From a virus: 43,487 bases of DNA. Location of the stretch: IMG/VR virus record IMGVR_UViG_3300036760_000354, positions 1 through 43,487 of that record; one strand, 5' to 3'. Made by a program: the position numbers and the translations under genes. The notes under the pieces are model-generated. The model saw only the letters and a list, made by a program, of their open reading frames with translations. It had not been told where the DNA came from and ran no database searches. The stretch's first letter is position 1. Every line of letters starts with the position of its first letter. Below, piece by piece: positions 20,459 through 26,468 of this stretch.

Positions 20459-20971
20459 ATGCCACCACACGGGTATTGCCAATGCGGGTGCGGCCAGAAG
20501 ACGGCTGTCTCGAACCGCAACGACTACCGGGACGGATACGCGAAGGGCGACCCGCGCAAGTTCGTCCGCGGTCACGCCGCACGCCTGCGCGTCCCTGGAC
20601 CTCGCAAGGGACGGGACGAAGCCCGTCGCCTCTACACCCTCGGCCCTTGCGAACGATGCGGCGCTCTCGCCGTTGACCGCCACCACAAGGACGAAAACGT
20701 GGACAACAACGACGCCAGCAACATCGAGATCCTCTGCCGGCGTTGTCACATGCGCGTCGATGGGCGGCTGGAGAAGCTCCGGGAAATGCCCGGCCGCTCG
20801 AAGGAGCCCCCGAAGCCATGCTCCAACTGCGGGAGGCCGTACAAGCCCTTGCGAAGAAGGAGGTGCTCTCCCTGCCGCACCTACTTCGACAAATACGGTA
20901 GAGAGCGGCCGCAGAGGTTGTGGAAGAACGGTGCTCCCCGTATCGAGAAGTCCTGGCGGAAAGGCGTGTGA
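20459..20971 (+). CDS. Free-standing HNH endonuclease with zinc ribbons
   Basis: A 170-residue protein. The N-terminal ribbon has CQCGCG, the HNH core reads CERCGALAVDRHHKDENVDN then NIEILCRRCHMR, and the C-terminal ribbon has CSNCG and CSPC. This is a homing-type nuclease common in phages. It lies 12 bases after the exonuclease stop, interrupts the otherwise overlapping operon, and uses more A/T-ending codons than its neighbours, pointing to insertion. Confidence 0.85.
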   Translation: MPPHGYCQCGCGQKTAVSNRNDYRDGYAKGDPRKFVRGHAARLRVPGPRKGRDEARRLYTLGPCERCGALAVDRHHKDENVDNNDASNIEILCRRCHMRVDGRLEKLREMPGRSKEPPKPCSNCGRPYKPLRRRRCSPCRTYFDKYGRERPQRLWKNGAPRIEKSWRKGV

Positions 20972-21652: not shown

Positions 21653-22690
21653 GTGAGCGCGAAGCTGATGGGCGAGTGCTTCGAACTCGACCTCTCGCGG
21701 CTAGCTGAGGAAGGGACGATGGTGTCCGTCCAGGCGATGAAGTGGACGCTGATGGCGCTCGCTGACCATGCTCACGCCGACGGGGGCAGCTCGCGTCCAT
21801 CCGTTCCGTTCATAGCTTGGAAGACGGACCTCGGGGTGAGAACGGTGCAGCGTGCGCTCACCCAGCTCGAGGCGTGCGGGATCATCGAAGCCCAGGGGAC
21901 ACGGAAAGGAGGGGGCCGCGGAACACCGACCGAGTGGAAACTCCATCTGGACAGAGCCCCGCGCAAGGAAGGCTTCTCGAACTTCGCGAATACGCCGCCC
22001 ACAGGTCTAAGAGAGAGCGTCATCGCCGACTCTGCCATGACGTGCTTCTTCTGCGGCGGCACGGGAGATGAAGAGCTCGGCCCCGACGGTCGCGCGTGGC
22101 ACATAGATCGCCTCGTTCCTGAGAAAAGAGGTGGGCACTACATCGAAGGGAACGTGGTGCTCGTGTGCGCCGCATGCAACCTCTCGAAAGGTCCCCGCGC
22201 GACACCCAAACCTCGCGCCATAGTGACGCGGAAACCCCGCCACGATGACGGGGCGTCAAACTTACGCCCTGACATAGAGACCGAGTTGGGGGTGCCAGTA
22301 GTGGCCGACGAACCAAGAACAGAACCAAGAGCTAAGCAAGAGCCTTCGGCTCTTGCGGCAGAAGGCGAGCAGGACACGCTCATGCCGGTTGAGGAGCAGC
22401 GGCCTAGGAACGTCGTGTGGGACGCGCTCAGTGAGCTCCTCGGGGAGCCGAGTACGAGGCAGGCGATGACCGCCCGCGGTCGGGCCGTGGCCCTGCTGAA
22501 GGCGGCCGGGGTGGATAGCGCCCGGAGGGTCGAGGAGCTCGCGGTCGAGTACCGCCGCACGTTCGACGGGGCCGCGTTGACGCAGCACGCCTTGGCGAAG
22601 CACGCCGACCAGCTCGTCCATCAGATCCGGCAGCGGAAGGAGGAGGCGCATGGCGCACAAGACGATCTCTCCCGCTACACCCAGGCCTGA
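21653..22690 (+). CDS. Replication initiator-like protein with embedded HNH domain
   Basis: A 345-residue protein. Residues 25-98 form a winged-helix domain of the phage replication-organiser type (SVQAMKWTLMALADHAHADG, GVRTVQRALTQLEACGIIEA). Residues 128-182 are a complete HNH unit (CFFC, AWHIDRLVPEKRGGHYIEGN, VCAACNLSKG). Residues 220-345 form a helical C-terminus resembling DnaD-like tails. The next gene is a DnaC-like loader, the usual pairing. The HNH section is more A+T-rich than its surroundings, so it looks like an in-frame insertion into a linker. The start is GTG 21653-21655 behind GGGAG; ATG 21668 is an alternative. Confidence 0.8.
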   Translation: MSAKLMGECFELDLSRLAEEGTMVSVQAMKWTLMALADHAHADGGSSRPSVPFIAWKTDLGVRTVQRALTQLEACGIIEAQGTRKGGGRGTPTEWKLHLDRAPRKEGFSNFANTPPTGLRESVIADSAMTCFFCGGTGDEELGPDGRAWHIDRLVPEKRGGHYIEGNVVLVCAACNLSKGPRATPKPRAIVTRKPRHDDGASNLRPDIETELGVPVVADEPRTEPRAKQEPSALAAEGEQDTLMPVEEQRPRNVVWDALSELLGEPSTRQAMTARGRAVALLKAAGVDSARRVEELAVEYRRTFDGAALTQHALAKHADQLVHQIRQRKEEAHGAQDDLSRYTQA

Positions 22691-23420
22691 CAGTGAGGAG
22701 AGCCGCCCCTGCCCGACGTGTAAGCGCGGCAGGGTGATCCCGGTCAGGATGCCGTGGGGGGAAACGATGTGGCCGCCACGCTGCGGCGCCTGCGCCCGCG
22801 GGCTCGAGCAGGACGAGAAAGCCGAGCAGGCCCGGCACCGTGTCGAGCAGATGCTCGCCCGCTCCGGCATCACCGCCCGGCTCGCGCCGCTCACGCTCCA
22901 CACCTACCCGGCCGACAACAGCGGGCAGGCCGCGTTGGACGTCGCCGGCGGATGGCTGCGCGACTACCTCGAGCACGACAGCCGCGCGAACCTGCTGCTC
23001 TTCGGCGGTGTCGGGGTCGGCAAGACCGGGCTCGCGTGGGGGATCGTCCGGGAACTCTGCGAGCGCGGCCGGTCGGCGACGCTCGTGAACTTCCGGCTGC
23101 TCCTGCACGAGCTGCGGGAGGGGATCCGGCAGGACGCCCCGAACACGCTGATCTCGAGGTGCCGACGTGTCGAGGTGCTCTGCCTGGACGACCTCGGCGC
23201 CGAACGCGCGACAGACTTCGCCCGCGACAGCCTCGCCACGTTGGTCGAGTACCGGTACGGGGCGAGCCTGCCGACGATCGTCACGTCGAACTACGACCCG
23301 GGGAAGCTCGCGGAACGGCTCGGCCATGATGATGTGATGGTCGGCCAGCGGATCGTGTCGCGGCTCGTCGAGGGGGCGGTGCAGCACCGGATGCTCGGCC
23401 CTGACAGGAGGCTCCCGTGA
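22650..23420 (+). CDS. dnaC: DnaC/IstB-like helicase loader ATPase
   Basis: A 256-residue AAA+ protein. An N-terminal zinc finger (Cys21, 24, 45, 48) precedes the ATPase: Walker A GGVGVGKT (119-126), Walker B VLCLDDLGAE (176-185), sensor 1 TSN (212-214) and a C-terminal arginine helix GQRIVSRLVEGAVQ. Such loaders open the host DnaB ring onto phage DNA. It overlaps the initiator gene by 41 bases, starting at ATG 22650-22652 behind AGGAGGAGG, which suggests tightly matched production. Confidence 0.92.
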   Translation: MAHKTISPATPRPDSEESRPCPTCKRGRVIPVRMPWGETMWPPRCGACARGLEQDEKAEQARHRVEQMLARSGITARLAPLTLHTYPADNSGQAALDVAGGWLRDYLEHDSRANLLLFGGVGVGKTGLAWGIVRELCERGRSATLVNFRLLLHELREGIRQDAPNTLISRCRRVEVLCLDDLGAERATDFARDSLATLVEYRYGASLPTIVTSNYDPGKLAERLGHDDVMVGQRIVSRLVEGAVQHRMLGPDRRLP

Positions 23421-23512
23421 GAGCGTGGCTGCGCCGGGTCTGGAGGAACCGGCCGCGCCCGCTGCGCGAGCTCCTGGACGCGATCGACGACTACGGGATG
23501 TGGAACGAGTGA
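23417..23512 (+). CDS. 31-residue basic peptide
   Basis: MRAWLRRVWRNRPRPLRELL followed by DAIDDYGMWNE: a basic, amphipathic N-terminal helix and an acidic end. GTG 23417-23419 overlaps the loader stop, and its TGA overlaps the next GTG, so it lies in an unbroken chain of coupled genes. G/C third positions support coding. Function is unknown. Confidence 0.45.
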   Translation: MRAWLRRVWRNRPRPLRELLDAIDDYGMWNE

Positions 23513-24075
23513 ACGTCCCCTACCTCACCGACCCGGACGTGACGCTATACGTGGGTGACGCGCTCGAGGTACTGGCCGGTCTGCCGGACGAGTCGGTGGA
23601 CGCTGTCGTCACGGACCTCGCGGCAGGCACGGCGGGCGAGCATCTCGTCTGCGCTGACCTTCTGCTCAAGGGCTTCCGTGCGTTCCGCGCCGAGCAGGTG
23701 TGCCCGTACGACGTCGCCGTTGATGCTGGCCGTCTCGTTCGGATCCAGGTCAAGACCACTCGCGCACCGCGCGCGATCCCGCAGCGGGTGAACCATCGCG
23801 CGGGGTACCTCTGGAATATCGCTCGCACTGGCAAGGGCGGGCGCCGGACGTACGGCATCGACGATTTCGACCTGCTCGCTCTCGTCGCGCTGGACGTTCG
23901 ACGGATCGCCTACCTGCCGCCCGGCTACCAGCCTCGGACGATCTCGATTCGCACTCACGAGGATCCTGGCCCGACTCCTGGGCGTGGGGGCAAGACAGGT
24001 CGCATCTTCTCCGACTTCCCCTTCGACCGCGCTCTGCGCGCTCTGCTTGAGGGAGGTGAAGCCCCGTGTCCGTGA
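23509..24075 (+). CDS. Methyltransferase start fused to a PD-(D/E)XK homing-type nuclease
   Basis: A 188-residue chimera. Residues 1-38 (TLYVGDALEVLAGLPDESVD then AVVTD) are the beginning of a DNA adenine/N4-cytosine methyltransferase, up to the Asp that should open the DPPY catalytic motif. From residue 39 it becomes GEHLVCADLLLKGFRAF, YDVAVDAGRLVRIQVKTT, matching group I intron-type PD-(D/E)XK endonucleases (Asp in YDVAVD, QVK catalytic strand). Codons of the second part are more T-rich. The fusion cannot methylate; it presumably expresses a nuclease whose insertion point is the conserved motif. GTG 23509-23511 overlaps the previous stop. Confidence 0.75.
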   Translation: MNVPYLTDPDVTLYVGDALEVLAGLPDESVDAVVTDLAAGTAGEHLVCADLLLKGFRAFRAEQVCPYDVAVDAGRLVRIQVKTTRAPRAIPQRVNHRAGYLWNIARTGKGGRRTYGIDDFDLLALVALDVRRIAYLPPGYQPRTISIRTHEDPGPTPGRGGKTGRIFSDFPFDRALRALLEGGEAPCP

Positions 24076-24227
24076 ACCTCATCCTCGGCGACTGTCTCGA
24101 GGAGTTGAAAGCGCTGCCCGATTGCTCGGTCGACGCCGTCGTCACGGATCCGTTACCGCCCTACGGGATCAACTTCATGGGCAAGGCGTGGGACGGAAGG
24201 GCGATCGAGGAGGCCGCTGATGGCTGA
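24066..24227 (+). pseudogene. Truncated DNA methyltransferase remnant
   Basis: A 53-residue ORF reading GDCLEELKALPDCSVDAVVT then DPLPPYGINFMGKAWD before a TGA. It is the N-terminus of a DNA N4/N6 methyltransferase, normally 200 or more residues, and stops right after the GKAWD region. The catalytic motif is DPLPPY rather than DPPY, a two-residue insertion. Its start (GTG 24066-24068) lies behind GGAGGTG and overlaps the chimera. It is a second, independent methyltransferase start 0.5 kb from the first, so duplication or insertion and deletion at this locus is likely. Confidence 0.65.
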
Positions 24228-24396: not shown

Positions 24397-24454
24397 CCCG
24401 TTCCCTCGTCCCATCCGCCCCTGCCCACCACGGCCGTCCGGGAGCCAGCGGTGA
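24389..24454 (+). CDS. Tiny proline-rich ORF
   Basis: MPDPFPRPIRPCPPRPSGSQ plus Arg, 21 residues. ATG 24389-24391 overlaps the preceding gene and TGA overlaps the following GTG. A coupling ORF is possible, but so is chance; no family is recognised. Confidence 0.25.
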   Translation: MPDPFPRPIRPCPPRPSGSQR

Positions 24455-24912
24455 AGCGCTCGCCGATGCCGCGCCGGAAGCAGGCGCTCCGCGTGAAAGG
24501 CCGAGGGGTCCGCACCATGAAACGGAAGGGCCGGATCGTCGCCGCCTCCCAGGACTACGCGGCGCTCGTCTGGACCGTCTGCTTCGGCGCCGAGTGCGCG
24601 TGCGGCTGCGGCCGCAAGGCCGAGACCGCCCATCACCTCGTGCCGCGCTCGCAGGGCGGAGACGACATCATCGACTGCCTCGCCCCGCTCGCCGGCGACG
24701 GAACCCGCCTCTGCCACGGCGCGTTCGAGACCAAGCAGCGCACCTACGACCTCGACGCTCGAACCTACGTCGAGCCGGAGCAGGTCGCCTACGGGATCCG
24801 TGACTACCTCGAAAGGCCCGCGCAGCGCCCGAAACGCGCGTACATCGTCCGCAAGGCAGGGCAGGCTTTCCTGGACGCGAAGTACCCGAGACGGAAGGAG
24901 GAGACGCTGTGA
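24451..24912 (+). CDS. HNH-type nuclease of the replication module
   Basis: A 153-residue basic protein. Residues 1-30 are Arg/Lys-rich; the HNH core is CACGCGRKAETAHHLVPRSQ (50-69) followed by a Cys and the CHGAFE block, a layout of phage-encoded HNH nucleases used in recombination or DNA processing rather than homing. Its codons match the phage average, unlike the homing-type genes. The start is GTG 24451-24453, overlapping the previous ORF; it overlaps the next gene by four bases. Confidence 0.75.
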   Translation: MKRSPMPRRKQALRVKGRGVRTMKRKGRIVAASQDYAALVWTVCFGAECACGCGRKAETAHHLVPRSQGGDDIIDCLAPLAGDGTRLCHGAFETKQRTYDLDARTYVEPEQVAYGIRDYLERPAQRPKRAYIVRKAGQAFLDAKYPRRKEETL

Positions 24913-25331: not shown

Positions 25332-26468
25332 ATGCGCGCCGGCAGCCTCTTCAGCGGGATCGGCGGACTCGACGCGGGGCTCGCCCGAGCAGGGCTTGAG
25401 CATGCTTTCCTCTGCGAGTCCGACGAGTGGCGACGGGGCGTCCTGCGCGAGCGGTTCCCCGGAGTGCCCATCTACGACGACGTGTGCGACGTTCATTCGG
25501 GCGACGAGGCCACATGGGGCGCGGGATGGCTCGCAGGACGACGAACGCTGGGAGGAGAGCCCGGTCACGCCTCCGCTGACACCGCACGGTCAGGGGTCGG
25601 TAGATCCGGCACTCGTCGTCTCGATCTCCTCTGCGGAGGCTTCCCCTGCCAGGACGTGTCAGTCGCCGGACAACGGGCCGGGCTCGCCGGGGAACGATCC
25701 GGCCTGTTCTTCGAGTTCGCCCGTGTCGCCGGGGCTCTTCGACCCCGATGGGTTCTCGTCGAGAACGTACCCGGCCTCCTCTCCTCGAACGGCGGTCGGG
25801 ACTTCGGAAGCGTGCTTGGAACGCTGGCCGACCTCGGGTACGGCCTGGCCTGGCGGATTCTCGACAGCCGTTACTTCGGAGTGCCGCAGCGACGACGCAG
25901 GGTGTTCATCGTCGGAACCCTCGCTGACGGAGATCCTCGAGCCGCCGCAGCGCGTGCCGGCCAGGTACTTGCTGTCGGCACGCGCTGCCCAAGGCATCCT
26001 GCGGCGCGCGGAGAAGCGCGGGCGGGTGCTGCCGTCGCATCTCTCAGCGGCCTTGGAACAGGTGGCCCGGATGACAACGATGGGCAAGGAGGGCGGCTCG
26101 TGAGCTACGCGCTGAACGCGAAGCGGGGCAACCGGGACGACGGGGAGAGCGAGACGTTCATCCCTTACACGTTCGACTGGCAGGCGGGCGGCAGTGGCGA
26201 CACATCTTGGCGCGGCAAGTCTCGTCAGTGGATAGACGACAAACCGGGCAACCCCGCACGGTCGCTCGTCAAGAACAAGACGCTCGCCGTCCACGAGGCG
26301 ACCGCTGTCCGGCGTCTCCTGCCCGTCGAGTGCGAACGCCTCCAGGCGCTACCGGACGGGTGGACGCTCCCCGGCCCCGACTCCCGACGCTACGCGGGGC
26401 TAGGCGATGCGGTGACGGCGAGCGTCGGCGAGTGGATCGGCCGTCGGCTTCTCATGGAGAGCGCATGA
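25332..26468 (+). CDS. dcm: C5-cytosine DNA methyltransferase
   Basis: A 378-residue enzyme with the ordered motifs of the Dcm family: motif I FSGIGGLDAGL (7-17), motif IV GGFPCQ with the catalytic Cys106, motif VI ENVPG (144-148), motif VIII QRRRR, motif IX RLLPVECERLQALPDGWT, and motif X GDAVTASVG at the C-terminus. It methylates cytosine at C5, probably shielding phage DNA from host restriction. The segment between motifs I and IV (residues 54-96) and the target region (about 200-290) are unusual and decide specificity, which I cannot read. No cognate restriction enzyme is evident. Confidence 0.95.
   Translation: MRAGSLFSGIGGLDAGLARAGLEHAFLCESDEWRRGVLRERFPGVPIYDDVCDVHSGDEATWGAGWLAGRRTLGGEPGHASADTARSGVGRSGTRRLDLLCGGFPCQDVSVAGQRAGLAGERSGLFFEFARVAGALRPRWVLVENVPGLLSSNGGRDFGSVLGTLADLGYGLAWRILDSRYFGVPQRRRRVFIVGTLADGDPRAAAARAGQVLAVGTRCPRHPAARGEARAGAAVASLSGLGTGGPDDNDGQGGRLVSYALNAKRGNRDDGESETFIPYTFDWQAGGSGDTSWRGKSRQWIDDKPGNPARSLVKNKTLAVHEATAVRRLLPVECERLQALPDGWTLPGPDSRRYAGLGDAVTASVGEWIGRRLLMESA

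Follow-up and report, generated by a model that had tools for sequence, protein, structure and literature searches.

A fused nuclease gene in a viral genome and a probable phage homing cassette that targets methyltransferase motif IV codons and carries a replacement gene start

Methyltransferase (MTase) genes of phages are, on the sequence comparisons described here, probably the target of a homing cassette that goes to the codons of motif IV and brings along a divergent replacement 5′ end for the gene. The window, the DNA analyzed here, comprises 43,487 bases of an IMG/VR virus record, and as read from its sequence it carries a remnant of this arrangement, namely a gene in which an MTase stub leads into a nuclease whose active-site residues are intact, followed by a dead MTase start (Table 1).

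Table 1. Features of the interrupted methyltransferase locus in the window
Feature	Position	Strand	Basis
ORF fusing an MTase N-terminal stub to the nuclease	23509..24075	+	GTG start
MTase stub, 36 codons, ending GTCGTCACGGAC (VVTD) before the expected motif IV (DPPY)	23509..23616	+	phrog_67 and mycobacteriophage matches
Nuclease core	23617..24072	+	Conserved E44, D68, Q80, K82 (ORF numbering), profile, fold
GGAGGTGA, Shine-Dalgarno-like site inside the nuclease ORF	24052..24059	+	Read from sequence
Second MTase start (putatively cassette-borne N′) with truncated body, 53 codons	24066..24227	+	phrog_67, E = 7.7e-14; complete counterparts in relatives
Altered motif IV, GATCCGTTACCGCCCTACGGG (DPLPPYG)	24147..24167	+	Read from sequence

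The fusion ORF opens with a GTG that overlaps the stop codon (TGA) of a short ORF lying upstream (23418-23512), and its product begins as an MTase, MNVPYLTDPDVTLYVGDALEVLAGLPDESVDAVVTD, continuing across the junction as LAAGTAGEHLVCADLL, with CPYDVAVD and RIQVKTT further on. The original prediction of an MTase start that runs to VVTD and passes in frame into a PD-(D/E)XK nuclease was borne out by matches to phrog_67, PDDEXK_5, and the I-Ssp6803I fold. The stub had been placed at residues 1 to 38; MTase homologues do align there, but its length is 36, the span over which the phage MTase profile phrog_67 matches (E = 1.2e-9) and mycobacteriophage DNA methylases are 67 to 72% identical. The in-frame fusion and the start codon overlapping the upstream stop are consistent with a nuclease able to borrow the MTase start signals, as had been proposed. 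Within the nuclease, E44 and D68 (codons at 23638 and 23710) are invariant and Q80 and K82 (23746 and 23752) are at least 90% conserved among 41 sequences. PDDEXK_5 (PF11645) matches the window protein alone from approximately residue 39 with E = 0.0014, under the Pfam cut-off, and matches 39 of the 41 family members at E ≤ 0.001; a profile of the 41 relatives matches I-Ssp6803I (PDB 2ost; E = 0.0014). An AlphaFold2 model of the fusion ORF (mean pLDDT 83, low in the stub) returned 2ost as the top fold in Foldseek (9.4e-8), and comparison of the model with 2ost by VIA gave Z 14.9 over residues 33 to 183 (137 aligned, rmsd 2.8; next fold, Z 9.6). By sequence and modeled fold, the nuclease belongs with the I-Ssp6803I-like PD-(D/E)XK homing endonucleases, and its E, D, and QxK residues would be equivalents of the I-Ssp6803I active site, judging from a YD/QVK alignment. 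I-Ssp6803I is encoded in an intron. In the phage case no intron was found; the nuclease gene is instead fused to coding pieces of its target gene or overlaps them, sitting exactly at MTase motif IV, in keeping with the predicted homing-type nuclease at a methylase catalytic motif.

The second ORF overlaps the fusion ORF by 10 bases, stop codon included, and its GTG lies 6 bases downstream of the end of GGAGGTGA. It carries VVTDPLPPYGINFMGKAWD, retains VVTD, and has six additional bases between GATCCG and CCCTACGGG in motif IV; nearly all of the MTase body is absent, the ORF ending after GKAWDGRAIEEAADG, 20 residues past the Y of PPY. A second MTase start over the nuclease end, with DPLPPYG and an early stop, was thus present as described earlier. 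The accompanying claim that insertion itself destroyed the methylase did not hold, as many relatives keep the downstream MTase open and full length. On sequence grounds, the loss in the window is a further, local decay, and rescue appears to have failed there because the body is gone; with the nuclease still present, it would have outlasted the gene meant for rescue. The six extra bases, seen on a single contig, may be a repair scar, a product of chance, or a sequencing error. Truncation of the MTase, its altered motif IV, and its occurrence on one contig only would also fit a decayed relic in which neither nuclease nor MTase works. This is unlikely, as the nuclease ORF is full length and keeps E, D, Q, and K, its I-Ssp6803I-like model is confident, and pN/pS against its relatives, an average over the whole branch, is 0.32 to 0.39 (range among nuclease relatives, 0.06–0.39).

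Searches with the window protein and a seven-sequence alignment recovered approximately 80 loci in viruses, along with two genome contigs. At many of these, an MTase N-terminal stub is followed by the nuclease and then by an MTase with a complete N terminus beginning at or just before the nuclease stop. This order was observed with DPPY MTases (window, L001, L002, L004, L016, and L029), with MT-A70-type DPPW MTases (L056, L060, L063–L065, L067, and L073), and with a third MTase type (L008). Both halves seen in the window are supported statistically, and the order is found again in unrelated phages. Stub and nuclease are in frame in the window and at L001, L011, L016, L056, L060, L063–L065, and L092; at L002, L004, and L029, the stub is out of frame or interrupted by a stop and the nuclease has its own start. 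Such variation among stubs, together with the position of the stub outside the confident part of the window model, led us to reject an ordinary two-domain enzyme family. Relatives with the same in-frame fusion do exist (L001 and L016), as such a family would require, but their recurrence points instead to a mobile cassette rather than a one-off accident. Across 38 nuclease clusters, the upstream sequence resembled the cluster's own downstream start (mean 41.2) more than the starts of other clusters (28.5), a likeness reached in 0 of 100,000 permutations. Among the same 38 clusters, no recognizable stub was found at L019, L020, L040, and L061, and among the loci examined, no MTase lay downstream of the nuclease at L010, the L036 group, L069, and L074. 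MTase relatives seldom have a nuclease neighbor. As a separate observation, in the named, inducible Klebsiella phage KO-TP1 (PQ571297.1; L258:2477-3642), a gene annotated as PDDEXK_5 overlaps one for a DNA methyltransferase, next to the regulator and DUF1317 genes that also occur in the E. coli prophages described below.

The borders of the cassette were placed in an enteric clade, where E. coli prophages without the nuclease (L174, L175, and L177) represent the empty allele of the L080 region and the insertion occupies a defined site. L080 and L174 are approximately 92% identical in the left flank through the MTase start codon and again approximately 92% identical in the right flank, resuming exactly at the DPPW codons. 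Between these flanks, L080 has 536 bases (the nuclease plus MPNQKYSLIMA) and L174 has ten codons (MTAKYSLLYV), which argues from the alignment that the enteric cassette is the nuclease plus a replacement 5′ end and not a whole second MTase. The suggested comparison with uninterrupted MTase genes therefore placed the junctions in this clade; for the window none was found, a search with the helicase loader giving no relative in viral_contigs and, among phage records, distant ones only (<60% identity).

Comparison of 15 enteric loci revealed mosaic cassettes. Between L079 and L081, the nuclease is 98% identical and the replacement N terminus (N′) 100% identical, with MTase bodies at 82% and unrelated upstream DNA (23%); the reverse was seen for L081 and L084, with nucleases at 76% and bodies at 95%. 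In L077 and L084, as in other such pairs, N′ is 96 to 100% identical at the DNA level while nuclease and body are both at 76%, and codon columns of invariant residues vary at 2 of 7 positions in N′ as compared to 35 of 41 in the body. This nucleotide conservation may also reflect translation initiation. The mosaics are indirect evidence that nuclease and N′ were transferred together, a pattern shown in the enteric clade and presumed for the others: N′ meets the old body at DPPW and travels with the nuclease. In the window, the corresponding ORF is broken.

These junctions also bear on a reading in which two MTases stood in tandem, the nuclease invaded the first, the remainder of that gene was deleted, and the MTase now found downstream is the other member of the pair. 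The window and L063 lack a close uninvaded relative among those found, leaving the origin of their bodies unplaceable at the DNA level, and the nearest uninvaded MTase body to that of L063 is only 63% identical, as tandem genes would allow. However, from the DPPW codons on, the enteric body is a continuation of the gene present at the empty site, one cluster after another has a stub and a downstream start that agree in MTase class and in sequence, and the interval from stub to nuclease showed no trace of an MTase body; we regard tandem MTases as quite improbable and retain the homing cassette as the preferred reading.

In the MT-A70-type group, MTases that are related to that of L063 but uninvaded have N termini like MTDPFADLPRGHYGAILADPPW, as the L063 stub would read if continued. 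Where stub and N′ have identical residues, the codons agree at 45 of 115 positions over eight loci, as compared to 43.8 expected from codon usage (window alone, 10 of 18 versus 6.6 expected). Because shared codons match the codon-usage expectation, N′ does not read as a recent copy of the stub, and the second start appears to be cassette-borne. Local duplication of the MTase start, part of the original prediction, was set aside as a general reading on this ground and because the enteric second start travels with the nuclease. A different case is L128:740-1420, considered as another insertion and rejected: an MTase start (MELIHGNCLD...DPPYGLSFMGKKWDYDV) is present twice, approximately 510 bases apart, around an unrelated ORF.

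The residues beside motif IV also differ between invaded and uninvaded genes. The motif I[LY]x precedes DPPW in 0 of 12 invaded clusters versus 108 of 113 uninvaded (48/49 and 60/64, the latter minus the query locus; Fisher 3.5e-13). The baselines are matched to the subfamilies of L063 and L040, and the match is poorer for the others; within the enteric cluster, a single member (L085) carries I[LY]x. At loci of the L001 type, N′ has ACITD, ACVTD, or GVCTD, and the uninvaded L260–L279 keep V-V/I-T-D. A pooled DPPY comparison (1/11 versus 55/59) is unusable as such, since the DPPYH subfamily varies without a nuclease, only 9 of 41 such members having the usual residues before DPPY. For this reason “altered VVTD” was given up as a signature valid for all DPPY MTases. 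DPPYH MTases with no nearby nuclease (L363–L441) have SCVT, SVVC, SAVM, and others before motif IV. Where they occur, altered residues beside the cut probably confer immunity to self-cutting. The restored MTase of L084, L086, L087, L090, and L091 has DPAW, not DPPW; these enzymes may be impaired in catalysis, or the cut site may have been changed further.

Overlapping nuclease and MTase ORFs at many loci, and the PD-(D/E)XK fold that many restriction enzymes also have, would suit a compact restriction-modification pair of the phage, in which unmodified DNA is cut by the nuclease and the MTase protects the phage, but we give this reading hardly any weight, as it leaves the MTase stub, the DPPW insertion border, and cassette borders inside the MTase unexplained, the nuclease occurs with three MTase classes whose relatives are mostly without it, no stable link to one cognate protecting MTase was found, PADLOC returned no restriction-enzyme match and a weak homing-endonuclease match for L080 only, and in the window, the nuclease is intact and the MTase broken.

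Under the homing-cassette reading, the nuclease would cut at motif IV, or close to it, in an MTase gene that has not been invaded, and the break would be repaired from the invaded copy, with the upstream flank as left homology and the MTase body from the DPPY or DPPW codons as right homology, a putative step whose borders are seen in the enteric clade. The recipient would then carry the old N-terminal stub, the nuclease, and an overlapping new start with the replacement N terminus joined to the old body. The nuclease, often in frame with the stub, would use the MTase start signals, and the MTase, whose anatomy is seen in many relatives and whose activity is putative, would stay a complete ORF after insertion. 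The replacement end has other codons and often one or two residues changed beside motif IV, so that the cut site would not be rebuilt, and the cassette would spare itself. A wider proposal, which we hold tentatively at somewhat less than even confidence, is that of a widespread, natural home-and-rescue drive of phages, in which the catalytic codons of several unrelated MTase classes are targeted, N′, conserved as nucleotide sequence, provides immunity, the PD-(D/E)XK nuclease can outlive its target, and the six bases in the window are possibly its own repair scar.

Homing nucleases prefer conserved sites, and the cost of insertion is otherwise removed by an intron, an intein, or gene splitting; replacing the damaged gene end would be another natural way round this cost. 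In fungal mitochondria, mobile ORFs (Glomus atp6, atp9, cox2, and nad3; Allomyces atp6) supply a replacement C terminus (PMC3630166). These share with the phage cassette an endonuclease ORF in a conserved gene and a divergent end copy that keeps the gene intact (PMC3630166). In the fungal case, the C terminus is replaced, the atp6 endonuclease is of the LAGLIDADG type, and the setting is a mitochondrial genome (PMC3630166), whereas the phage cassette involves the N terminus, a PD-(D/E)XK nuclease, phage genomes, and MTase motif IV codons. The homing endonucleases that split genes in T4-type phages (mobE in Aeh1 nrdA and mobA in T4 gene 60) are likewise phage homing endonucleases in a functionally critical gene region, but there the gene is split into two cooperating polypeptides (PMC2988022), in contrast to the single ORF with a replaced end seen here. 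The engineered HomeR drive follows the same logic, in which a conserved site of an important gene is cut and a restoring piece is carried along (PMC7968924). HomeR is synthetic and uses Cas9 in Drosophila (PMC7968924), whereas the phage cassette is natural, with a protein nuclease and putative cutting and drive; with its three MTase classes, it would be a natural counterpart of home-and-rescue drives. A literature search of open-access text turned up no description of such a cassette in phage MTase genes. In E. coli-type prophages, empty and occupied alleles are both available in clean form, which makes cutting, drive, and self-immunity directly testable, and the cassette would explain fusions of MTase and nuclease that might be misannotated as restriction systems or as bifunctional enzymes.

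Several further features were noted. In the window, an HTH_36 protein with an embedded HNH domain (21653-22690), upstream of the DnaC-like helicase loader, is possibly another nuclease insertion; two more HNH-like ORFs (20459-20971 and 24451-24912) have weak Pfam matches, and the window therefore holds several candidate homing nucleases. A C-5 cytosine MTase (25332-26468; DNA_methylase, 1.3e-53) lies near the broken N4/N6-type MTase. Among the relatives, the nucleases at L051:4001-4615 and L060:4001-4591 have a Cys/His-rich C-terminal tail, which we take to resemble the zinc modules of phage HNH nucleases. The stubless nucleases of L036, L039, L041, L043, L059, and their relatives have N termini such as MQQSLFEHLGF and QLTLFDA, presumably resembling sliding-clamp-binding peptides.
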